A stretch of 64,000 nt of DNA from Seonamhaeicola sp. ML3 (GTDB lineage Bacteria > Bacteroidota > Bacteroidia > Flavobacteriales > Flavobacteriaceae): assembly GCF_023273855.1 (NCBI RefSeq), contig NZ_CP096884.1, positions 1,116,001 through 1,180,000 of the forward strand, written 5' to 3'. Positions 19,243 through 52,650 of the stretch are shown here, piece by piece. The translations under genes were made by a program, and so were the position numbers. Numbering within the stretch: the stretch's first letter is position 1; each line of letters starts with the position of its first letter. Below the pieces are notes generated by a model. The model was given only the letters and a program-made list of their open reading frames with translations, was not told the DNA's origin and did no database searches.

Positions 19243-19264
19243 CTAATGTTATGCTAATGTTATG
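19243..19264 (-). promoter_or_regulatory. Pho-box-like tandem repeat 1
   Basis: CTAATGTTATG occurs twice in exact tandem. Read on the minus strand this gives ATAACA-N5-ATAACA, like the PhoP box TTAACA-N5-TTAACA known in Bacillus. It lies 50 bases ahead of the PiT gene. Confidence 0.6.
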
Positions 19265-19325
19265 TTCTTTACTCTAAATAATAAAAACTACGGTTAATAA
19301 TGCTCAACAAACCAATATACACTTA

Positions 19326-19342
19326 TGTTAACTTAATGTTAC
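19326..19342 (-). promoter_or_regulatory. Pho-box-like tandem repeat 2
   Basis: TGTTAA at 19326 and TGTTAC at 19337 are 11 bases apart; on the minus strand GTAACA-N5-TTAACA. It lies in the divergent region between the PiT and MORN-type genes. Confidence 0.55.
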
Positions 19343-19391
19343 TAATTTTAAAAATATTAAAATATTGTTATTCAATTAGTTACAGTTTTAA

Positions 19392-19419
19392 TGTTAATTT
19401 AATGTTATGTAAACGTTGT
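19392..19419 (-). promoter_or_regulatory. Pho-box-like tandem repeat 3 (three units)
   Basis: TGTTAA (19392), TGTTAT (19403) and a weaker CGTTGT (19414) keep an 11-base period. The first two sit in identical TTAATGTTA units. It is 60-90 bases ahead of the plus-strand MORN-type gene. Confidence 0.6.
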
Positions 19420-19479
19420 CTACTTGTAAATTTATACATATATTTGTTATGTAATTATTAATTAAAAACCCCACATATT

Positions 19480-19827
19480 ATGAAAAAATATATCTTTATC
19501 CTTACAGTTTTATTTATAGGCACCTCTGTTTTTGCACAAGAAGATAAAAAAGTAACACACAAAACTATAGGAGACTTAATTGAAACCACCTACTTCTACG
19601 CAGATGGTAGCATACAACAACAAGGTACTTTTAATAAAGAAGGAAAACTACATGGCACCTGGACCAGTTTTGATACTAAAGGCAATAAAATAGCTGTTGG
19701 TAACTACGAAAATGGAAAAAAAGAAGGTAAATGGACTTTTTTAGTAAATGGTGAAATTAAAGAGGTTGACTATGTTAACTCTAAAGTGACTAAAATTTCT
19801 AAAGTAGACAAAGCTGTATCGCTTTAA
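19480..19827 (+). CDS. small secreted MORN-type repeat protein
   Basis: 115 residues with a clear signal peptide (cleavage after VFAQ). Two or three MORN/YwqK-like repeats follow (QGTFNKEGKLHGTW, GNYENGKKEGKWTF). Similar flavobacterial proteins are sometimes labelled as antitoxins or as nicotinate-nucleotide adenylyltransferases; nothing here supports an enzyme. It is divergent from the PiT gene, with tandem Pho-like boxes in its upstream region, so it may belong to the same response. Exported; function unknown. Confidence 0.8.
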   Translation: MKKYIFILTVLFIGTSVFAQEDKKVTHKTIGDLIETTYFYADGSIQQQGTFNKEGKLHGTWTSFDTKGNKIAVGNYENGKKEGKWTFLVNGEIKEVDYVNSKVTKISKVDKAVSL

Positions 19828-19843
19828 CTACAATAAAAAGCAT

Positions 19844-19876
19844 AAAAAAGCCGATGCAATGCATCGGCTTTTTTTT
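19844..19876. terminator. bidirectional terminator between the MORN and TonB-receptor genes
   Basis: GCCGATGC (19850-19857), loop AAT, GCATCGGC (19861-19868), with six As before and eight Ts after. It serves both convergent genes. Confidence 0.9.
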
Positions 19877-19893
19877 ATCTAAAATTTAAGCTA

Positions 19894-22728
19894 TTAGAAC
19901 TTAAGAGAGTATCCTATGGAAAACTCGGTTCCAGGCTGTCTCAAAGAAAAGATTCTATCTTGTGCCTGAAAAGATTGATAAACACTTTCCACCTCGGCAC
20001 CTAAAATATTACTTACCTTAATATCTATAGCAGATTTTTTATTTTCTCCAAAAACCTTGTTTAAGGTAAAGTTTAAGCTTTCAAATGGAAGCGTAAACAC
20101 ATCTGGAACACCACCTAAACCAACAACTTCAAGTGTTTTCCCTTGCATGTTAAAGAATAAACCTGTTTGCAATCCAATATCAGAATTGGTATAGTTTAAA
20201 CTTGTGTTGATTAAGAAAGGTGACTGCCCTTGTAGATTACGTTTTCTATCAATAGTCTCTCCTGTTCTGGCATTTTGAGATCTAGAGAAAAACTCCCCTT
20301 CAGACATGGTTAACTCAGACTCTGTTACAGAGGCATTTAATGAGAACTTCAAATTTCTTAAACCTTCTGCAATGAAGCCTAAATTTTGTCTAAACTCAAT
20401 TTCAGCACCGTAAACATCGGCACTACCTAAGTTTGCGACCGTAAGTTGCGTTGGAGCTGATGCAAAGAAGGATTTTTCGATAGGATCATCAAACTTCTTA
20501 TAGAAACCACTTATAGCAAACATTTGTCCAGCTTCACCAAAACGCTCAAACCTTAAATCGAAATTATCAACATAGGTAGGATTCAGGTTAATATTACCAA
20601 TAAACAATCTATCTGTAATAGGATCGAAAATCTGTACAAAAGAAGCTTCCTTGAATGAAGGACGAGCGGTTGTTTTGTAATAAGATGTTCTTATGTTCGA
20701 TTCCTCTCCTACAGCATAAATAAGATTTGCCGATGGGAAGAAATCATGTTTATCAAGTACTTTAAACCTTAAAAAGTCATCACCTGTTGTATTGTTTCTA
20801 CCAGTATAATACGATGTAAAAATCTCGGCACGTAACCCTAAAATAGCTTTAAGTTTTTCACTAACGTTAAACTCGTTAGAGATGTACGTAGATGCTATGT
20901 TTTGTTCACCTTCATAGGCATCACCAGGGTTGAAAATATCACCAGAGATTAAGAATGTACCATTTACACTATTATCTCTACTCCAAATATTTTCTGGAGC
21001 AAGTAAATTATTTGGATTACCATCTACAACCTCTGCACCATTATTGTTAAAGGTATAATCATCGATGTTAAAATCCCTAAACTTATAAGTGTAGCCACCT
21101 CCAAATTTTACTTTAGCAGGTCTACCACCTAATTGGTACTTCTTGCTAAAATCGAACTTTGAAGCCCAGTTTTCTTCTTGTAACCATCTCCAGATTCGAA
21201 TAGGAAATGTTGCAGCCGATGGCGATATAAAAAACTCACCGTTATCAGCCTCTTGTAAAGGTGTTACTCTATGGTCTTTATCGTAAACCTTTGCAAAAGT
21301 TGGTGAAAATTTCCAATCAAAATCCCAATCATTTTCAGCACCGAAAGAGTGATCACCACTTACTAAAAGATTAGTTACCGAACGCTCTGTATAGGTAATA
21401 GCGTCTTTTGTTAAAGGCTCAAAACCAGAACCAGAACCAGAACCTCCCTGAGCGATAAGCTGATCGAAGAAACCACCAGCAGACTCTCCGTTTTGGATAT
21501 GTAGTACGTTTACTTTGTATTTTGATCTTTCACTTTTATACGTTAGACCAACCAGACCATTAAGGAGAATGTTATTGATACCCTCGCTACCCTCAGAAAT
21601 TCTATCGATTACAAGTTCTGTGTTAGCTGGATTATTCGCGTCTATAGAGAAAGCACCATCTACACGATTCTCGTAAAAAGTAGTTGAGTTCTTATAAGAG
21701 AAAGATGCTTGATAACCGAACTTATCTTCTCCAATTTCAAATTGGTCACCTAGCGTAAATCCGAAGTCAAAATTAGGATTACTAGTTTGTTGTTTAGCTC
21801 TTAATTCGCTATCAAAACGACCAGTTAAAGATGTTAAAAGTCCACGATTTTCAAATCTTCCCGGTATAGGTTGATACCTGTTTATTTGCAGGTTTCTAGT
21901 ACCATCATCATATCCCCAAAAATCGGTATCACCGCCAGTTCCAATAAGAAAGTTGTCATTAAAATGCATATCGGGGTTGTAACCTGTTCCCAAAGAAATA
22001 GAAGCCTCAAATTTTGTTGGGAAATCTTTGGTAACAATATCTACAACACCTCCAGTAAAATCTGCCGGATACTCTGCAGCAGCAGACTTAACTACTATAA
22101 TGTTATCTAAAATATTGGTAGGGAAAATATCCATCTGAATTGTGTTTCTATCAGGATCTAATCCTGGAATATCCACACCATTCAAAGTAGATTTCGTATA
22201 ACGGTCTCCTAGACCTCTAACGTATACATATTTACCCCCAACCACAGAAACTCCAGGAACACTTTTTACGGCAGTAGCTAAATTACTTGCTCCACTCGAT
22301 TTTATACTCTGAGCAGATAACCCATCTAGTAACGTTACCGATTTTTTCTGGATGTCTAATACTGCACTTTCAGTATTTCTTTTAATACTTGTAGTGATAA
22401 CAATCTCATCTAAAGAGTTTGATGACAAGGTTACATCTAAATCTACAACTTGTCCACTCTGTATAACTACATCGCTTATTTCTTTGGTTTGATAACCTAC
22501 AAATGAGAAAATAACGGTATAAGTACCAGTCTCTAAGTTTAACTGATACTTACCATCAAAATCTGATGTTGTACCAATGGTAGTTCCTTTTACTATTACA
22601 TTGGCAAAGGCCATAGGCTCATTGTTATACTCGCCATCAAGGATATTTCCAGCAAGAGTTCCAGTTTGAGAGGAAGCAGCTAAAACAGAACCTAAGAACA
22701 GTAAGAGAAATACATAAATATTTTTCAT
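19894..22728 (-). CDS. TonB-dependent outer-membrane receptor with CarboxypepD_reg-like N-terminus
   Basis: 944 residues. Signal peptide (~1-20), carboxypeptidase-regulatory-like beta-sandwich (~24-108), plug domain (~115-240, with YVRGLGDRYTKSTLNG and an AEYPADFTGGVVDI region), then a long 22-strand-type barrel ending in Phe. No TonB-box experiment is possible here, but the layout is that of an active uptake receptor. It lies directly behind the beta-helix surface lipoprotein gene, separated by a strong stem-loop, and its operon has Pho-like boxes upstream. The substrate is probably a phosphorus compound (inference); no SusD partner is present. Confidence 0.9.
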   Translation of the reverse strand: MKNIYVFLLLFLGSVLAASSQTGTLAGNILDGEYNNEPMAFANVIVKGTTIGTTSDFDGKYQLNLETGTYTVIFSFVGYQTKEISDVVIQSGQVVDLDVTLSSNSLDEIVITTSIKRNTESAVLDIQKKSVTLLDGLSAQSIKSSGASNLATAVKSVPGVSVVGGKYVYVRGLGDRYTKSTLNGVDIPGLDPDRNTIQMDIFPTNILDNIIVVKSAAAEYPADFTGGVVDIVTKDFPTKFEASISLGTGYNPDMHFNDNFLIGTGGDTDFWGYDDGTRNLQINRYQPIPGRFENRGLLTSLTGRFDSELRAKQQTSNPNFDFGFTLGDQFEIGEDKFGYQASFSYKNSTTFYENRVDGAFSIDANNPANTELVIDRISEGSEGINNILLNGLVGLTYKSERSKYKVNVLHIQNGESAGGFFDQLIAQGGSGSGSGFEPLTKDAITYTERSVTNLLVSGDHSFGAENDWDFDWKFSPTFAKVYDKDHRVTPLQEADNGEFFISPSAATFPIRIWRWLQEENWASKFDFSKKYQLGGRPAKVKFGGGYTYKFRDFNIDDYTFNNNGAEVVDGNPNNLLAPENIWSRDNSVNGTFLISGDIFNPGDAYEGEQNIASTYISNEFNVSEKLKAILGLRAEIFTSYYTGRNNTTGDDFLRFKVLDKHDFFPSANLIYAVGEESNIRTSYYKTTARPSFKEASFVQIFDPITDRLFIGNINLNPTYVDNFDLRFERFGEAGQMFAISGFYKKFDDPIEKSFFASAPTQLTVANLGSADVYGAEIEFRQNLGFIAEGLRNLKFSLNASVTESELTMSEGEFFSRSQNARTGETIDRKRNLQGQSPFLINTSLNYTNSDIGLQTGLFFNMQGKTLEVVGLGGVPDVFTLPFESLNFTLNKVFGENKKSAIDIKVSNILGAEVESVYQSFQAQDRIFSLRQPGTEFSIGYSLKF

Positions 22729-22741
22729 ATAAATTATTTAT

Positions 22742-22778
22742 GTACTTCTGCCTAATTAAAAGGCAGAAGTACTTTTTT
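22742..22778 (-). terminator. intra-operon stem-loop between lipoprotein and receptor genes
   Basis: GTACTTCTGCC (22742-22752) and GGCAGAAGTAC (22762-22772) form a perfect 11-bp stem with a 9-base loop. The T-run lies on the plus-strand side; on the minus (gene) strand the following bases are only AT-rich. It may partly terminate, or act as an RNA stabiliser setting the lipoprotein:receptor ratio. Confidence 0.6.
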
Positions 22779-22799
22779 GTTTTGTAATTCTTTTTGAAT

Positions 22800-24134
22800 T
22801 TAGAAGCCTAAACCTCCAGCTGAATTTGCGTAAGTCCAGCTAAGGTTTGTAGTATTTGCACCTACAGTTTGTGAACCGTCGTTTACTTGAGTAGCCCATC
22901 CTGCCGCTCTTGTTGTAAAGTCTGGGTTTAAGATGATTTTATCTTCATCGATATCATTATCTTCATCGGTATCATCACAGTTTTGTGCACAACCTACTTT
23001 TTCAACAAAAATACTGTTATCAAAACCTACTATTTGCCAGTTAGAAAAAGTAATTAACCCATCAAGGAAGTTTTGAGAAACACCATTGTTATCTAACTCT
23101 ACATCTTTACCTGCAGGGAAACCTTTAGCAAAAACATTAGAAGTAGTTCCTCTTGCTTTACTTCTGTAATCGGCATACTCACCATTACTAGTGCTAGAGT
23201 TACCAATAATAGTAGCGTTAGTTAATGTAAATGAACCTTCGCTTCCGTTTGGAGTACTACCTTCAGGACCATCAATTTCGAAAGCGTGATCTGAGGCAGA
23301 ACCTAAAACAACTACAGCATTATCTATAGTTCCAGAATATGCTTGATCAATATCGATAGCATCGTCACCTTGTGCCCACACTAATAAATTAGAAGCGTTT
23401 ACAGTTCCACCAAAAAACTCAATGCCATCATCTACATTGGCGACAACTTCAACGTTGTTTATAACTGTACCTGAACCTACTCCTCCAAGTGTTAAACCAT
23501 TAATTTCGTTTCCTTCACCTATTAAAGCTCCACCGTGACGGATAGAAACATACTCTAATCTACCTGAATCATCTGCAGCATCACTACCTCCATAAAGACC
23601 GAAAGTATCATCAGCAGGAATTCCTTCTATTTGTGCTTCAGCTAAATCTCCTTTTAAAGAACAAGGCGCATTTCCAAGAATGATTAAACCACCCCAAAGT
23701 CCTCTGTTATCTTGATTTAAATTAGTACCAGCAGTTTCTCCAGCATCAATATTATCACTTGTAGAAGTGAATATGATTGGAGCAGAAGCTGTACCAACAG
23801 CGTTTATTTTACCACCTCTAGCAACAATTAATGCAGAAGCTAAAGATCCTGTACCTGCTCTACCTTTAATTATTGTACCAGCCTCAATGGTTAAAGTAAC
23901 ACCATCTTGAACCACAACTCTTCTGTCTAATTCATATATGTTATCACTTGTCCAAGTTTCGTCTAAAGCAATACCACCAGCTTTTACAATTACAGGAGTC
24001 CCTGTTGGTGTGTTACCTCCTCCTTCATTAATAATTGTCACCTCCTCTATAATTATAGGAGTGTCATCATCTTTAAAACATCCCGTAAATACTAAGGTAG
24101 ATGCTACTAAAAGAGTTAAAAATATTTTTTTCAT
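22800..24134 (-). CDS. surface-exposed beta-helix lipoprotein, partner of the TonB receptor
   Basis: 444 residues. The lipobox Cys is C19 and is followed by F-K-D-D-D, close to the lipoprotein export signal (Lys plus Asp/Glu right after Cys) that sends Bacteroidetes lipoproteins to the outer face. The body is a right-handed beta-helix (VVQDGVTLTIEAGTIIKG, GGLIILGNAPC, NNVEVVANVDDGIEFFGG, ASNLLVWAQGDDAIDID), rich in Gly/Asp/Asn and possibly Ca-binding. It precedes the TonB-dependent receptor in the same direction, in the place where a SusD-like binder would be. Proposed role: capture or processing of the ligand at the surface. Confidence 0.8.
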   Translation of the reverse strand: MKKIFLTLLVASTLVFTGCFKDDDTPIIIEEVTIINEGGGNTPTGTPVIVKAGGIALDETWTSDNIYELDRRVVVQDGVTLTIEAGTIIKGRAGTGSLASALIVARGGKINAVGTASAPIIFTSTSDNIDAGETAGTNLNQDNRGLWGGLIILGNAPCSLKGDLAEAQIEGIPADDTFGLYGGSDAADDSGRLEYVSIRHGGALIGEGNEINGLTLGGVGSGTVINNVEVVANVDDGIEFFGGTVNASNLLVWAQGDDAIDIDQAYSGTIDNAVVVLGSASDHAFEIDGPEGSTPNGSEGSFTLTNATIIGNSSTSNGEYADYRSKARGTTSNVFAKGFPAGKDVELDNNGVSQNFLDGLITFSNWQIVGFDNSIFVEKVGCAQNCDDTDEDNDIDEDKIILNPDFTTRAAGWATQVNDGSQTVGANTTNLSWTYANSAGGLGF

Positions 24135-24195
24135 TGTGTTTAAATTTTAGATGTATTTTTTTGTTTCCATTTACGCTGCAAAGAAATACACATTA

Positions 24196-24212
24196 TGTAA
24201 ACATGATGTTAC
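24196..24212 (-). promoter_or_regulatory. Pho-box-like tandem repeat 4
   Basis: TGTAAA at 24196 and TGTTAC at 24207, 11 bases apart; on the minus strand GTAACA-N5-TTTACA, 62 bases ahead of the lipoprotein ATG. Confidence 0.5.
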
Positions 24213-24239
24213 TTAAGCATTAAAGAACAGTAATAAAAG

Positions 24240-24256
24240 GGTTATCTTAATGTTAT
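24240..24256 (-). promoter_or_regulatory. Pho-box-like tandem repeat 5
   Basis: GGTTAT at 24240 and TGTTAT at 24251, 11 bases apart; on the minus strand ATAACA-N5-ATAACC. The second unit has one mismatch. Confidence 0.45.
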
Positions 24257-24447
24257 GGGATTTCACAGTGTAATTTGCGTTGGAAACAATTTGTTAACAT
24301 TAAAAACTATATAGTTTTAAAAAAGCATATATTATCTTCTAGAACATAATACATGTGATAAATCAACAATCGCTCTAGTCTACGATTAAATCAAAATCAA
24401 GAGTGACTAATAATTAGAAAAAAAGTTGTTGTGAGTAGTTCGAACCT

Positions 24448-24849
24448 CTAGTTAAGAGAGGATGATGTAGATGCCTGACTCTCTAAAGTATGAGACTGCT
24501 TGGTAGTTTCGGCCGAAGCTATATCTGTTTGGGGAAGCGTAAAAGCACCTAAAGCCAACTTAACCTCTGAAGGATTAATAGCATCTACTTTTACTTTAAC
24601 TTCCTTAGACTCATATCCTGGGAAATTAAAAACTAAAACGTAATCTCCAGCTTCTAAATTTTCAAGAAGAAACATTCCCGAAAAATCTGAAGAAACACTA
24701 ATAGAAGTTCCTTTAATGGAAACGTTTGCAAACGCCATGGGCGTATTATCGGCTTCTTTATCCAACACTTTACCAACAACCATACCCGTGTTTTGAGCAA
24801 AAGAGATTGCGGCAAATAAAAAGAAGAATAAAGTTATAATACGTTTCAC
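24448..24849 (-). CDS. free-standing CarboxypepD_reg-like secreted protein
   Basis: About 133 residues. The frame opens at a TTG (24876), but a GTG at 24849 gives a textbook signal peptide (KRIITLFFFLFAAISFAQ); TTG at 24855 is another option. The mature part is a single carboxypeptidase-regulatory-like domain with PMAFANVSIKGTSI, SDFSGMF, GDYVLVFNFPGYESKEV, strikingly like the N-terminal extension of the neighbouring TonB receptor (PMAFANVIVKGTTI, SDFDGKY). It then ends in a Ser/Thr-rich tail without plug or barrel. No frameshifted receptor remains follow, so it looks like a dedicated small protein rather than a broken receptor. Two Pho-like boxes stand 50-100 bases upstream. Confidence 0.7.
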   Translation of the reverse strand: MKRIITLFFFLFAAISFAQNTGMVVGKVLDKEADNTPMAFANVSIKGTSISVSSDFSGMFLLENLEAGDYVLVFNFPGYESKEVKVKVDAINPSEVKLALGAFTLPQTDIASAETTKQSHTLESQASTSSSLN

Positions 24850-24901
24850 TTTCAATATGAATTTTGTGTGGTACAAATAACCGACATTAATTAAACTACA
24901 A

Positions 24902-24918
24902 TGTTACCTAATTGTTAA
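24902..24918 (-). promoter_or_regulatory. Pho-box-like tandem repeat 6
   Basis: TGTTAC at 24902 and TGTTAA at 24913, 11 bases apart; on the minus strand TTAACA-N5-GTAACA, about 50 bases ahead of the CarboxypepD_reg-like gene. Confidence 0.55.
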
Positions 24919-24934
24919 TGGTATTTCATTTTTA

Positions 24935-24951
24935 CGTTACCCTAATGTTAA
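24935..24951 (-). promoter_or_regulatory. Pho-box-like tandem repeat 7
   Basis: CGTTAC at 24935 and TGTTAA at 24946, 11 bases apart; on the minus strand TTAACA-N5-GTAACG. It lies between the CarboxypepD_reg-like gene and the divergent dgt gene. Confidence 0.5.
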
Positions 24952-25006: not shown

Positions 25007-26335
25007 ATGACTATGAACTGGGAACAATTACTATCCTTAAAGCGCTTTGGCGACACCAATAAAAGACTTAGAAAAGAACAGGACGAAACGCGTGTTGGTT
25101 TCGAAGTAGATTACGACCGTATCATTTTTTCTTCAGAATTTAGAAGCCTACAGGATAAAACCCAGGTTATACCACTTTCTCAAACCGATTTTGTACATAC
25201 CAGACTTACCCATAGTTTAGAGGTGAGTGTTGTTGGGCGGTCTTTGGGACGTAAAGTTGGTCAAAAAATACTGGAAAAATATCCGCATTTAAAAGAAATA
25301 CACGGCTACCAGATAAACGATTTTGGTGCTATTGTTGCTGCTGCTGCTTTGGCTCACGATATAGGCAATCCGCCATTTGGGCATTCTGGTGAAAAATCTA
25401 TTGGAGAATTTTTTAAAACGGGTGAGGGTTTACACTACAAGAATCAATTAACCGATAAAGAATACCAAGACCTTTGCGATTTTGAAGGTAATGCTAACGG
25501 TTTTAAAATTATTACCCAAAAAAACCTAAGGTTAAGCTACGCAACACTGGGTGCTTTTATGAAATACCCTAAAGAATCTTTACCTAAGAAACCATCTTCC
25601 CATATTGCTGATAAAAAATATGGTTTTTTTCAATCTGAAAAAGCCTTGTTTACTAATGTGGCTAACGAACTGGGACTTCTGGAACGTAGCAAATCTAACA
25701 TAAGCTATTCGCGACACCCATTGGCATATTTGGTCGAAGCGGCCGATGACATCTGTTACACCATAATAGATTTTGAGGACGGTATTAACCTCGGACTCAT
25801 TGAAGAAGAATTTGCTTTAGAATATTTGTCGAAAATCATTAGAAATACGATCATCCCAGAAAACTATTATAATTTATCTAGTAAACAAGAACGAATAGGT
25901 TACTTAAGGGCTCTGGCTATAGGTACTTTAATCGATGAGGCTGTAGCCATTTTTATGGAACACGAAGAAGCCATTTTAAATGGCACATTCAACTATGCTT
26001 TATTGGATAAGAGCAAATACGAGGCACAGATTAATGATATTATTAAAATAAGTATTGAAAAGATTTATCATTCTGAAGAAGTTATAGACAAAGAAATTGC
26101 TGGCTACCAAATAATAAATAAACTTTTAGGTATTTATACAAAGGCCGTAAACAACAATTTTGATGGTACCGCATCTAACTACGATAAACTTGTTCTTAAA
26201 CGACTTCCCAAAACCATAGACTTTTCAAGTGAAAACTTATACGACCGCCTCCTAGCGGTTTGCCATTATGTTTCGTTACTATCGGACAGCAAAGCTATTT
26301 TGAATTTTAAGACTATTGAGGGGGTTACTTTTTAA
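25007..26335 (+). CDS. dgt: deoxyguanosinetriphosphate triphosphohydrolase
   Basis: 442 residues, the usual length. HD-domain metal ligands are visible: H69 in RLTHSLEV, H117-D118 in AHDIGNPPFGH, and a later Asp in EAADDICY. The FRSLQDKTQV segment is the dGTPase signature. The enzyme hydrolyses dGTP (and often other dNTPs) to deoxynucleoside plus triphosphate, lowering dNTP pools; it would act against the nrdBA product, though the two loci are 11 kb apart. ATG at 25007, with a second ATG two codons later. Confidence 0.92.
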   Translation: MTMNWEQLLSLKRFGDTNKRLRKEQDETRVGFEVDYDRIIFSSEFRSLQDKTQVIPLSQTDFVHTRLTHSLEVSVVGRSLGRKVGQKILEKYPHLKEIHGYQINDFGAIVAAAALAHDIGNPPFGHSGEKSIGEFFKTGEGLHYKNQLTDKEYQDLCDFEGNANGFKIITQKNLRLSYATLGAFMKYPKESLPKKPSSHIADKKYGFFQSEKALFTNVANELGLLERSKSNISYSRHPLAYLVEAADDICYTIIDFEDGINLGLIEEEFALEYLSKIIRNTIIPENYYNLSSKQERIGYLRALAIGTLIDEAVAIFMEHEEAILNGTFNYALLDKSKYEAQINDIIKISIEKIYHSEEVIDKEIAGYQIINKLLGIYTKAVNNNFDGTASNYDKLVLKRLPKTIDFSSENLYDRLLAVCHYVSLLSDSKAILNFKTIEGVTF

Positions 26336-48728: not shown

Positions 48729-49862
48729 ATGATTAACAAACGCCTTCTTATTAAACACCTTTTAGCTCATAACGATGAGAACAGTTTTTATGATAAAAAA
48801 CGTAAGGTCGATATAAGTCATAAAGAAGGCAAAGGCAAATTTTTGAAACACATTTGCGCACTTTCAAACAGTAACCCTAAGAACAATTCATATATCGTTA
48901 TTGGGGTTCAAGATGAAGACAACAACATTATTGGTGTAGATTTTTTTGATGATAGTAAAATTCAAAATCTAATTAATGCTTATCTCACCAATCCGCCTAT
49001 TGTGCAATACGAAAACATCCCTTTTCCGCATTTGCCTGAAGATAAAGTTGTTGGATTAGTAACCATTAGACCAACCGGAAAAATTACATCATTAAGAAAA
49101 AACATTTGGAAATATTATGGTGGCTCCGTCTTTTTTAGAGACGGCAGTATGAGTATGCCCAAAGTCTTTGATATTGAAATAAAAGACGTGAATTCTAAAA
49201 TTGTTGCCGCCATTGAAAAAAATGCACAAAACAACATTGAGCATACCCTAAATGGCGTTTTTGATTTTATGAATAATCGTAAAGACTTTAACGCTCAATA
49301 CAAAGTTTTTAAGGAATATTTTGTGCTTTGTTGGTCTGGACAAAAAAAGCAGGTTAAAGATGAAGTCTTCTATTCTCGCGTTGACATTGAATTAATAAAC
49401 GAACAAGTACGTTTGTTCTTCTCTGCACTAGATGAAGTTTCTATTTTTTTTGATAACAATAGTTTTAAAATTATTGAATATGTAAATCTTGGTCTTCAAA
49501 ATACCGATAAGTATTATAAACTAGAGGAAACCATAATAAGGTTTGAAGACAATGCCAATTATAATATTGATACCAAACTCTTGTTTGAGCCACCTCAATT
49601 CAACAAAAAGGTATTACACCACATCTACAACACCAATAATATCCTTTTGGAAAAATTAAAAAAGGGGCTAACGCTTACAAAAAATGAGGAGGTTGATTTA
49701 CAAAACCTACCGCACACCTACTTAATCTGTTATCTTAACTTGTTTCATGAAGCCATTGATAAACTCAAAGAAGCAAAGCCACATTTGAAACAGCACAGTA
49801 CCGAGGTATATCAATATTATAAGGAGACCATGCGCATTTTAAGAAAAGTAAAATATAGTTAA
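48729..49862 (+). CDS. AlbA_2 (Schlafen-type) domain protein
   Basis: 377 residues. The N-terminal ~150 residues carry the AlbA_2 putative nucleic-acid-binding domain (GKGKFLKHICALSNSNP, YIVIGVQDEDNNIIGVD, VVGLVTIRP). The rest is helical and unrecognised. Such proteins are usually annotated ATP-binding or transcriptional-regulator-like, with little experimental backing. Follows the SDR gene after 31 bases and may share its transcript. The 3' side has a strong hairpin (49936-49986). Confidence 0.75.
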   Translation: MINKRLLIKHLLAHNDENSFYDKKRKVDISHKEGKGKFLKHICALSNSNPKNNSYIVIGVQDEDNNIIGVDFFDDSKIQNLINAYLTNPPIVQYENIPFPHLPEDKVVGLVTIRPTGKITSLRKNIWKYYGGSVFFRDGSMSMPKVFDIEIKDVNSKIVAAIEKNAQNNIEHTLNGVFDFMNNRKDFNAQYKVFKEYFVLCWSGQKKQVKDEVFYSRVDIELINEQVRLFFSALDEVSIFFDNNSFKIIEYVNLGLQNTDKYYKLEETIIRFEDNANYNIDTKLLFEPPQFNKKVLHHIYNTNNILLEKLKKGLTLTKNEEVDLQNLPHTYLICYLNLFHEAIDKLKEAKPHLKQHSTEVYQYYKETMRILRKVKYS

Positions 49863-49873
49863 CTCTTAACCTT

Positions 49874-49893
49874 AAATTAACATATGTTAATTT
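49874..49893. promoter_or_regulatory. perfect 20-bp palindrome
   Basis: Reads AAATTAACAT followed by its exact reverse complement. It lies 9 bases ahead of a perfect -7 box and is a plausible operator for the transcript at 49916. Confidence 0.5.
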
Positions 49894-50077: not shown

Positions 50078-51268
50078 CTAAATAAAATTTAACTGCTTGA
50101 ATGATTTATTTAAAATCTTTTCGTCATCTGCTTCCAACCATTTGCTTAAAACAGTTGCGTAAATAGTCCTAAAATCTATTTCGAATTTTAAGTCGCCATT
50201 ATCATCCAGATTATCCAAATTTGCCAATTTGTTATAAATACCAGGCTTCTTTAATTGGTTACCAATAACAAAAAGATTATTTGCAGTACCATGATCGGTT
50301 CCTGAGCTTGCATTTTGTTTTACACGACGCCCAAACTCAGAAAAAGTTAATATCAAAGTATCATTAAAAGTGCCTCCAGCTTTTAAATCTTCAACAAATG
50401 TTTCTACACTTTGAGCATATTGGTTCAATAGTCGTTTCTGGGTTGGCATTTGGTTAACATGAGTATCAAAACCATTTAATGAAGCATAATATACCTTGGT
50501 ATCGAGATGAGAATTAATAAAACGTGCTGCCGTTTTTAACTGTTTGCCAAATTTATTATTTGGGTATTCCCGTTTTGCAGAAACCGTTTTACTGGTCTCA
50601 AAAATATATTTTGAAGAGGAGTGCGACTCAATCATAGACTTATAGAGATAGCCTAAATTATGTTCACTGAGATGTGTGTCTTTGTTGTGCTTATTAAGAT
50701 TTTCAAAATAAGGATCTCTAGATAAATTGTACAAGGATTTTGGGTCTTGTGTGGCAATAGCATTTTTAGTTTCTCCTTTCATGGCTAACGATAAACTTTC
50801 ATCGATTTGTATAGCCGAATAGGGAGCTTCTCCATAATGGTCTAGATACCTACCTATCCAACCACTTTGAGAATATTCGTTGGAGTCTACCGCAGTTTGC
50901 CATATATCCATTGACCTAAAGTGAGAACGATTGGGGTTAGGGTACCCCACATTATTGATTATGGTCAACAAACCTTGGTCATAAAGCCTATTTAAAGGTG
51001 CCAAACTTGGGTGTAAACCAACCTCATCGGTTAACTTTAGAACATTACTTTTTGGGATGCTAAGCGAAGTTCTTTCTTTGTAATAAATATCATTATGAAA
51101 TGGGATAACGGTATTTAATCCGTCGTTTCCTCCCGATAATTGTATAATTACCAAACGCTTGTAACCTAAACGACTAGCAGCTATATTTTCGAAAGCCTTG
51201 ACAAAACTTGGAACGAAAAACAAACTACTTGCTAACGACGATTGTTTTAAAAATTTTCTTCTGTCCAT
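50078..51268 (-). CDS. DUF1501 family secreted protein
   Basis: 396 residues from the ATG at 51268, two bases after the DUF1800 stop. The N-terminus MDRRKFLKQSSLASSLF has an RR and hydrophobic stretch and may be a Tat signal, as usual for DUF1501. Core features: VIIQLSGGNDGLNTVIPF, NRSHFRSMDIWQTA, FSEFGRR and GTDHGTAN, which follow the alkaline-phosphatase/sulfatase-like superfamily. DUF1800-DUF1501 pairs are widespread in Bacteroidetes and planctomycetes; function unknown. Confidence 0.88.
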   Translation of the reverse strand: MDRRKFLKQSSLASSLFFVPSFVKAFENIAASRLGYKRLVIIQLSGGNDGLNTVIPFHNDIYYKERTSLSIPKSNVLKLTDEVGLHPSLAPLNRLYDQGLLTIINNVGYPNPNRSHFRSMDIWQTAVDSNEYSQSGWIGRYLDHYGEAPYSAIQIDESLSLAMKGETKNAIATQDPKSLYNLSRDPYFENLNKHNKDTHLSEHNLGYLYKSMIESHSSSKYIFETSKTVSAKREYPNNKFGKQLKTAARFINSHLDTKVYYASLNGFDTHVNQMPTQKRLLNQYAQSVETFVEDLKAGGTFNDTLILTFSEFGRRVKQNASSGTDHGTANNLFVIGNQLKKPGIYNKLANLDNLDDNGDLKFEIDFRTIYATVLSKWLEADDEKILNKSFKQLNFI

Positions 51269-51270
51269 GA

Positions 51271-52650
51271 TCAACACATTTGATATTCGGGTAACGACAT
51301 TAATTGAATACAATACTCTTGTTTAGATATCTTTTCTAAGGAATCTAAATAGTGTTTTGCTGTTAGTGATAAATCACAAGCTAATATATGTTCCTTTAAA
51401 TCATCAATGGAGACGTTGCTAAACTTATCTGTAAAATAGGCCCAATTGTTTTCTACGTTAAATCGCTTTCCGTAGTTCTTCTTGAAAAATTGCTTCTTCT
51501 GTTCTAACCTAGAGTCTTCATTACCTTTTTTTGTATTGGATATGTAGGCACTATTTAAAAGTAAAGATGGAAGTTTAAGTCTCAAGGCCACAGTGTTACT
51601 ATCTATCCAATTTCGCCCGCCTTTCCATCCGGCAACATTGGGCGGATCCAATAAAACTTGTCCCAGTAATCGTTGCAAGTTTATAAGTTGTCTTTTGTTT
51701 ATGAATTCTACAGGTACAACCGTTTTAATACCTACCAGAAACTCTATGGGCGATTTAATTTTTGTTCCCATATTTTGGTCGTCATAAAACCAAGCGGAAG
51801 TACAAATAAAACGCATTAGTTTGTCGATATCATAATCTTTATAGAACACATCGGTCATTGCACTAACATGACTTTCATTAAGGTTGTCATTAACAAAATA
51901 CTTGTATAGTTTTTCACAGATATACTCCGCACATCGTCTCTGTTCTAAAATAATATCTATAATATCTTCACCATCAAAATTACCTGTTTTACCAAAAAAG
52001 TTCTTTTCCCCATAGTCGTGAATTCTACCCCTAAAAACAAAATCTCCCTGCATGTTATGGCTGTAACCTGTAAAGGCTTTGGCACTCTCTTTTATGTCCT
52101 GTTCAGTGTAATTACCAACACCCAAGGTAAAGAGTTCCATGAGCTCTCTGGCAAAATTTTCGTTGGGCTTTTGCTTTTTATTTTGCTTGGTATTTAAATA
52201 CTTTGTCATGGCCGCTTCCTTAGAAATCGCCACAACAAAATCTTTAAAATTACCCAAAGCATGGCGCCTAAGCGTATTGTGATAATTCTGTGTGTATAGA
52301 AAATTGTTGTCTTCACAAACAAAGTGATTGGCCCAAAACAGCGTCATTTTTTCTCTTAACAATTCTTCAGGACTGGCAAGTCTCTCTATCCAAGCGTGGT
52401 TTAATTTTAGAGTTAATGACCGGCTTAGTTTTTGAATTTTCTGAATATTGGGCTTCGCCGTTATGTAAGAATCGCCCATTAAGCTTTTTAACTCAGAAGT
52501 ATCAAGCGTAAGTGGCGTTGTGTTTTTAGACGCATTAAAAAGGGTGTTTACAACTTCCTTCGTTTTTTTACTACTAAGCCTGCTTAACTCGTCTGGTAAT
52601 ATTCCAAATCCCAGACGTCTGTATAAATGCTGAATATGCTTTTTTTCCAT
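51271..52650 (-). CDS. DUF1800 family protein
   Basis: 459 residues. HLYRRLGFG near the N-terminus, LREKMTLFWANHFV, NENFARELMELFTLGVGNY and DPPNVAGWKGGRNWI are the DUF1800 marks. No signal peptide evident. Overlaps nothing; the following DUF1501 gene starts two bases behind its TGA, so translation is coupled. The two proteins are thought to act together, but the activity is not known. Confidence 0.9.
   Translation of the reverse strand: MEKKHIQHLYRRLGFGILPDELSRLSSKKTKEVVNTLFNASKNTTPLTLDTSELKSLMGDSYITAKPNIQKIQKLSRSLTLKLNHAWIERLASPEELLREKMTLFWANHFVCEDNNFLYTQNYHNTLRRHALGNFKDFVVAISKEAAMTKYLNTKQNKKQKPNENFARELMELFTLGVGNYTEQDIKESAKAFTGYSHNMQGDFVFRGRIHDYGEKNFFGKTGNFDGEDIIDIILEQRRCAEYICEKLYKYFVNDNLNESHVSAMTDVFYKDYDIDKLMRFICTSAWFYDDQNMGTKIKSPIEFLVGIKTVVPVEFINKRQLINLQRLLGQVLLDPPNVAGWKGGRNWIDSNTVALRLKLPSLLLNSAYISNTKKGNEDSRLEQKKQFFKKNYGKRFNVENNWAYFTDKFSNVSIDDLKEHILACDLSLTAKHYLDSLEKISKQEYCIQLMSLPEYQMC

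Follow-up and report, generated by a model that had tools for sequence, protein, structure and literature searches.

Arrays of 11-bp direct repeats around a PiT phosphate transporter gene of Seonamhaeicola sp. ML3: probable Pho-box operators of a compact phosphate-starvation regulon

A stretch of 64,000 nucleotides from the flavobacterium Seonamhaeicola sp. ML3 (assembly GCF_023273855.1, contig NZ_CP096884.1, positions 1,116,001 to 1,180,000; the whole stretch is called the window in the following) contains a cluster of genes for a PiT phosphate transporter, a MORN-type protein, a lipoprotein with a TonB-dependent receptor, and a CarboxypepD_reg-like protein (CarboxypepD-reg), and the regions upstream of these genes carry direct repeats with a period of 11 base pairs (bp). 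We think it very likely that these arrays are the Pho-box operators of a compact phosphate-starvation regulon that is run by a PhoB-like protein. The evidence consists of the sites themselves, the grid on which they lie, their orientations, their conservation in relatives and their linkage to particular genes.

Results

Repeat arrays in the window

The seven repeat pairs reported in the initial annotation (19247/19258, 19326/19337, 19392/19403/19414, 24196/24207, 24240/24251, 24902/24913 and 24935/24946) are all present with an exact period of 11 bases, and they are real and far above chance. They do share a core, as had been claimed, but this core is better described as TAACATT every 11 bp (TAACA-N6-TAACA, about seven conserved and four free bases) than as TTAACA-N5-TTAACA. 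Ahead of TAACA, A predominates in the first half-site and A or G in the second, and the supposed match to the TTAACA of Bacillus PhoP is not exact.

The sites were scored with a matrix of 19 bases that was trained, with the window excluded, on the sites at -65 of the PiT genes in 72 of 80 loci of relatives (80 PiT loci from named genomes, with 1190 open reading frames, ORFs, in total); the remaining eight loci had no site with at most four mismatches at -80 to -40. Six of the seven pairs reach at least 13 bits with this matrix from other genomes: 22.5 bits at 19244, 20.7 at 19323, 20.0 at 19389 (with 14.0 one unit further), 13.8 at 24237, 23.7 at 24899 and 18.2 at 24932. The seventh, at 24193, is weak (8.1 bits) and lies in register within the six-unit array of the lipoprotein operon; the lipoprotein pairs, the CarboxypepD-reg pairs and the MORN triple are all parts of longer arrays. 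The 6,379 bases of intergenic DNA in the window contain nine sites of at least 13 bits, compared with a mean of 0.068 and a maximum of one in 500 first-order Markov sequences. Eight of the nine fall in the three intergenic stretches of the cluster; a lone strong site of 15.7 bits (49867-49885, plus strand) lies elsewhere, just past an ORF (48729-49862) and before a convergent one (50078-51313).

The features are as follows, operators and promoter elements first.

19244-19262, minus strand: probable PiT promoter operator; two TAACATT half-sites with 11-bp period, sense, 22.5 bits
19219-19226, minus strand: predicted PiT -7 element GACATTTG; TTTG exactly 22 bp past the second half-site
19323-19341, minus strand: extra two-unit site between PiT and MORN; 20.7 bits, starting 66 bp (6 x 11) away from where the MORN array starts
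19390-19429, minus strand: probable operator of the MORN promoter; four half-sites that run against the direction of the MORN gene
19439-19446, plus strand: predicted MORN -7 element TATATTTG; 50 bp on from position 19389, where the 19-base site starts
24194-24255, minus strand: probable operator of the lipoprotein/TonB-receptor operon; six half-sites in 11-bp steps, the last 11 bp before TTTG at 24179-24182
24899-24950, minus strand: probable CarboxypepD-reg operator; five half-sites in 11-bp steps, the middle one poor, 23.7 and 18.2 bits
16892-19192, minus strand: PiT phosphate transporter (PF01384); no other PHO4-family gene was found in the genome
19480-19827, plus strand: predicted secreted MORN_2-type protein of 115 amino acids (PF07661, E 2.8e-5, below the family cut-off)
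19894-22728, minus strand: TonB-dependent receptor with CarboxypepD_reg domain and plug, following the lipoprotein gene
22800-24134, minus strand: predicted outer-membrane lipoprotein with a predicted parallel beta-helix (structure model)
24448-24858, minus strand: CarboxypepD_reg-like protein; start codon (TTG) uncertain
25007-26335, plus strand: dGTPase-like gene, adjoining the CarboxypepD-reg gene and sharing its upstream region

The units of the lipoprotein array (from 24255 to 24194) read TAACATT/TAACCCT/TTACTGT/TAATGCT/TAACATC/TTACATA, two of the six having three mismatches to TAACATT, and the last half-site of the CarboxypepD-reg operator lies 22 bp before the TTTG at 24874-24877. About 30 bp upstream of the lipoprotein array, a 13.4-bit site of opposite orientation is found (24284-24302, plus strand). 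The half-sites of the MORN operator read AATGTTA/AATGTTA/AACGTTG/CTTGTAA on the plus strand, and the scores of 20.0 and 14.0 bits cover the first three of them.

Sense arrays and their 11-bp grid

For each gene in the 80 loci, sites scoring 13 bits or more were counted in the 300 bp ahead of it, the main table comprising gene labels with at least eight ORFs, and the orientation of the sites (sense or inverted) was assigned by the matrix trained on PiT alone; the relatives share ancestry and are not independent. A sense box precedes 76 of 81 PiT-labelled ORFs, a count that includes the training set of the matrix and is thus partly circular. The counts for OprP (27 of 31 ORFs with a sense box), CarboxypepD-reg (28 of 34 orthologues) and the TonB receptor (21 of 50 sense, three inverted) are not circular, and the same holds for the MORN and phoB counts given below, except that MORN and PiT often share one intergenic region. 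Lipoprotein genes, many of which come after a receptor gene, have seven sense and eight inverted sites among 72 ORFs. The dGTPase-like genes (29 of 42 inverted, five sense) owe their counts to the upstream region that they share with the CarboxypepD-reg gene. Among unlabelled ORFs, 29 of 528 have a sense and eight an inverted site, and those of TonB-receptor length often have one about 100 bp upstream. The control set of nine gene families (223 ORFs) yielded no sense and one inverted site.

The boxes keep a fixed register to the motif TAnnTTTG, which we take to be the Bacteroidetes -7 element. Counting the window, 75 of 81 sequences have TTTG exactly 22 bp past the PiT half-site; when each PiT cluster of 80% identity is counted once, the box with this exact spacing is present in 23 of 25. 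When the representatives of these 25 clusters are anchored on TTTG alone, the footprint peaks on both half-sites. The same grid is found at the other sense promoters: with TTTG as the origin, TAACA has phase 0 of 11 in 124 of 154 cases for PiT, 40 of 43 for OprP, 55 of 71 for CarboxypepD-reg and 113 of 139 for the TonB receptor, and in none of 18 for control genes. In the window, the units lie 22 and 33 bp from TTTG before PiT, 22 to 66 bp before CarboxypepD-reg (one poor) and 11 to 66 bp before the lipoprotein gene (six, two of them poor).

Arrays of at least three in-register units (at most two mismatches each) precede 34 of 50 TonB receptors, 24 of 34 CarboxypepD-reg and 21 of 31 OprP genes, as well as 14 of 81 PiT genes (69 of 81 have at least two units) and one of 223 control genes. 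They are also found at 14 of the 16 lipoprotein genes that lack a preceding receptor and at three of the 55 that follow one. A second lipoprotein paralogue (L152, 33%) has no site with up to four mismatches in the 300 bp upstream.

Inverted arrays before MORN and phoB

Two genes have the array in the opposite orientation. An inverted box precedes 71 of 76 MORN ORFs (one has a sense box), and in 51 of these 71 the distance from the start of the matrix site to TAnnTTTG is 50 bp. The distance between the MORN and PiT starts varies from 274 bp to about 4 kb, with MORN after PiT in one locus, and therefore the array belongs with MORN and not with PiT. In a scan of 59 genomes, which included the organism's own and used a pattern written from the window's MORN promoter, the exact MORN pattern had 18 matches in 17 genomes (control, one), 17 of which precede MORN genes; at three of these loci (L163, L165 and L179) neither PiT nor another cluster gene was found in the 3 kb covered. 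The extra site between PiT and MORN in the window has a counterpart in two loci (L033 and L034), where a similar site lies 55 bp (5 x 11) from the locus's own MORN array.

For phoB, an inverted box precedes 24 of 28 labelled ORFs and a sense box one; one of the 28 (L035) is outside both the set of close orthologues and the 24 with an inverted site. An inverted site scoring 15.3 bits also lies 90 bp ahead of the organism's own phoB gene. None of the 24 phoB boxes has TAnnTTTG at the offsets tested.

By eye, Aquimarina-type loci (among L058-L101) often seem to have two inverted pairs about 33 bp apart in the gap between PiT and phoB, upstream of phoB. In another locus (L146, genome G036), several boxes lie ahead of two genes and run against them, the second of which encodes a CYTH (triphosphatase-type) domain.

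Genome-wide pattern scans

The exact sense pattern (TAACA-N6-TAACA-N24-TTTG, with the reversed pattern as control) matches only the PiT and CarboxypepD-reg promoters in the organism's own genome. In the 59 genomes, the own one again included and the pattern written from the window's PiT promoter, 39 matches are found in 28 genomes, compared with seven for the control, and 31 genomes have none. The matches comprise 17 PiT genes (expected from the origin of the pattern), seven CarboxypepD-reg genes beside a dGTPase-like gene and one other, three TonB receptors divergent from a phoB orthologue, one Na/Pi cotransporter, one neighbour with a weak porin match, and nine others, about the control level; 30 of the 39 are thus at phosphate or cluster genes. 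The enrichment near phosphate genes that the initial annotation had predicted for a genome scan is therefore seen among relatives (17 PiT and 13 further cluster or phosphate genes), but in the own genome the weaker matches stay near the control.

The Na/Pi cotransporter (PF02690 with PhoU) was found in a genome from another family of the order (G045; L121 and L148), and there the gene with the weak porin match has a site of its own 1.9 kb further on. In the own genome, the genes beside sites with two mismatches (ten proteins, among them a pyrophosphatase, an M1-like protein, an AraC-type regulator, EF-Ts and a rhamnosidase) have no consistent phosphate theme; one such box (L006, G000:C1:854674) lies between an inorganic pyrophosphatase gene and a divergent M1-peptidase-like gene. 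Look-alike TetR-type genes with the sense pattern occur in the own genome (L118, G000:C1 near 2950490, one mismatch) and in a related one (L155, G011, exact), and the TetR-type gene may be a further target.

Regulator and phosphate genes

Two regulators of the OmpR/PhoB type (PF00486) were found in the genome: a PhoB-like one with a PhoR-like kinase (L102, G000:C1:1715794-1716474), and one that is nearest to RprY (L103, G000:C1). None of the best NCBIfam matches of the four proteins at these two loci reaches its cut-off. Orthologues of the PhoB-like regulator (75-85% identity) are present in 27 of the 80 loci, 26 of them on the strand of PiT and about 1 kb or less after it (in locus L095, MORN lies between the two), and in three of the 59 genomes orthologues of 63-82% identity are divergent from a boxed TonB receptor.

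The search of the own genome for three families of phosphate importers found PiT alone; neither OprP (PF07396) nor an Na/Pi cotransporter was found. The single PhoX gene has a site of 12.8 bits 33 bp from TTTG. PhoX is rejected as a regulon member for now, the box not being kept in its orthologues; a box at PhoX is not required of every Pho regulon. MORN and CarboxypepD-reg are proteins without a known phosphate role.

The structure model of the lipoprotein (pLDDT 81.9, pTM 0.83) was based on an alignment of 26 of 62 homologues and the window's own sequence. Its best fold matches are mostly beta-helix enzymes and weak (E 4.1e-3 and above, none at 0.001 or below), and solved structures gave no sequence match at E 0.1.

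Discussion

The conservation of the boxes at PiT, OprP, CarboxypepD-reg, TonB receptor and phoB genes in many marine flavobacteria, together with the absence of sense sites from 223 control genes, supports the probable Pho regulon cluster that was initially proposed. From sequence, the binding protein is most likely the PhoB-like regulator with its PhoR-like kinase, its effect at the uptake genes most likely activation, and the signal most likely phosphate. On the model of E. coli PhoB, tandem dimers of the regulator would sit head-to-tail on two to six half-sites of 11 bp (TAACATT-N4). At the sense promoters (PiT, lipoprotein/TonB receptor and CarboxypepD-reg, and OprP in relatives), the half-sites lie on an 11-bp grid whose origin is the TTTG in the predicted -7 element, and the last good one ends 22 or 11 bp upstream of this TTTG, so that the regulator would stand in for a -33 element and recruit RNA polymerase at low phosphate. 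The MORN and phoB arrays run the other way, and the regulator would therefore meet the polymerase by its other face.

This leads to the proposal of two promoter classes for one phosphate regulator, in which sense arrays on the grid drive the uptake genes, inverted arrays serve phoB and MORN, and orientation encodes a different output, be it timing, sign or polymerase contact. We give this proposal about an even chance. A rival reading, which we consider less likely than not, is that the inverted arrays repress, which would mean negative autoregulation of phoB and a MORN gene that is off at low phosphate. The MORN array spans about 53 to 14 bp before TTTG and thus covers the usual -33 site, and its orientation is opposite to that of the presumed activating sites, both of which would suit a repressor. 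However, Flavobacterium johnsoniae PhoB is listed as going up at phosphate depletion (log2 3.06; PMC8115612), and for Riemerella anatipestifer an upregulation of PhoPR under phosphate starvation is stated (PMC9603813); if the promoters are built alike, these statements, drawn from parts of the two papers, fit activation better.

It is improbable that the arrays are bound by the RprY-like regulator and respond to envelope or redox stress instead of phosphate. Only two PF00486 proteins were found, which leaves the RprY-like protein as the one alternative candidate of this kind, and the Riemerella motif has been likened in the available text to that of ArcA, a redox regulator (PMC9603813). Yet an RprY-type match beats the PhoB-type match in only one full-length case in the 80 loci (L060, 42% identity), it is the PhoB-like orthologues that follow PiT or adjoin boxed TonB receptors, phoB itself has boxes, and the boxed targets include phosphate importers, among them the unrelated Na/Pi cotransporter of another family. 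Chance, that is, A+T-rich direct repeats in intergenic DNA, would explain most of the weak own-genome matches, which are noise, but for the arrays it is refuted by their conservation, since most of the 80 loci have the sites at the same place. The own-genome exact sites, moreover, occur only in this cluster, and the window's excess over Markov sequences is large.

It should be noted that several observations weigh against a PhoB-run phosphate regulon. The own-genome scan gave 21 matches compared with 15 for the reversed pattern at up to two mismatches, and 17 compared with eight at one mismatch; this is modestly above the control, and weak distant targets are therefore indistinguishable from noise. 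The partial circularity of the PiT count, the shared ancestry of the relatives and the derivation of both scan patterns from the window's own promoters, in scans that include its genome, belong here too. A sense site of 13 bits is lacking at 29 of 50 labelled TonB receptors and at 65 of 72 lipoprotein genes. The best NCBIfam model of the PhoB-like regulator is PhoB, with a score below the cut-off (219.6 of 296.2 bits; 208.5 of 270 for the Bacteroidetes model). Sites had been predicted before pst and phoX genes; the genome yielded no PstS over the cut-off (the sole weak match is in an ORF of 327 amino acids that is LysR-like by eye), so that this test fails or cannot apply, and the four PhoX orthologues of at least 50% identity have no site over 8 bits as a counterpart of the weak one here. 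As to published data, seen in part, a Riemerella phoPR mutant had eightfold higher pstS, the opposite of activation (PMC5399024), and no induction of OprP was seen in F. johnsoniae (log2 -1.3, not significant; PMC8115612), though OprP is boxed in the relatives analysed here. Phosphate control by a PhoB-like protein nevertheless remains, in our view, very likely the correct explanation.

The PhoP box of Bacillus subtilis has the core TTAACA and the PHO box of E. coli the core CTGTCAT. The arrays resemble the former in their 11-bp direct repeats and a near-identical A+T-rich core, but TAACA is mostly preceded by A or G instead of T, and phylum and promoter type differ; a literature search on the strand of Bacillus PhoP boxes gave nothing relevant. 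They differ from the E. coli box in the core TAACATT, in arrays of up to six units, in the register to the Bacteroidetes -7 TTTG, in the inverted array of two genes and in a genome without a PstS over the cut-off. What they have in common with it, as far as the covered text describes it, are 11-base direct repeats with about seven conserved bases, bound head-to-tail, and phosphate uptake genes as targets (PMC4415409).

Within the Bacteroidetes, the following comparisons are limited to the parts of the papers that were available. The F. johnsoniae Pho regulon is alike in having phoBR, OprP, a TonB receptor and a lipoprotein with a pectin-lyase-like fold in one cluster, and its phoBR-linked TonB-dependent transporter and lipoprotein are strongly induced at low phosphate (PMC8115612); unlike it, the window cluster has neither OprP nor phoBR, and the main text of that paper does not contain the words promoter, motif or MORN. 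The weak beta-helix matches of the lipoprotein model fit the same pectin-lyase-like family, without proof. Riemerella PhoP is a PhoB/PhoP-type regulator of the Flavobacteriales with a similar motif, the most conserved bases of which are TTTAACA, and its binding was shown by DNA affinity purification sequencing and gel shift (PMC9603813). It differs in having 583 peaks and a virulence-centred regulon; 'phosphate transporter' is absent from the main text and no register or orientation rule appears in the part covered (PMC9603813). In Bacteroides fragilis, PhoB binds the pst promoter and a putative phosphate/sulphate permease (BF3715) is listed as PhoB dependent, but this species relies on PstSCAB, whose PstS component was not found in the present genome, and the covered part gives no binding-site consensus (PMC3547664). 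Predicted Pho boxes were also marked in a study of plcP in marine bacteria including flavobacteria, again with no consensus in the part covered (PMC4796936). The 11-bp grid, the inverted class and the MORN gene were not described in the full-text literature found, a search that lay outside subscription journals and supplements.

Pho-type operators are thus known as a kind; what is new is the form of the operator, the register that it keeps to the Bacteroidetes promoter, and the conservation of inverted arrays. If the two promoter classes exist, few regulon members would be as constant as the MORN protein, whose gene keeps the same inverted array also at loci with no PiT seen beside it. The conserved inverted arrays offer a clean test of whether the orientation of a PhoB-type array alters its effect. 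The arrays would provide a concrete operator of the phosphate regulon that can be looked for in the genomes of a large group of marine bacteria. The low-phosphate genes of this group are known, but no description of their control sites was found in the literature searched. This operator would explain why PiT, OprP, TonB receptor and lipoprotein genes lie together, and it would name an uncharacterised MORN protein as a core member of the regulon.

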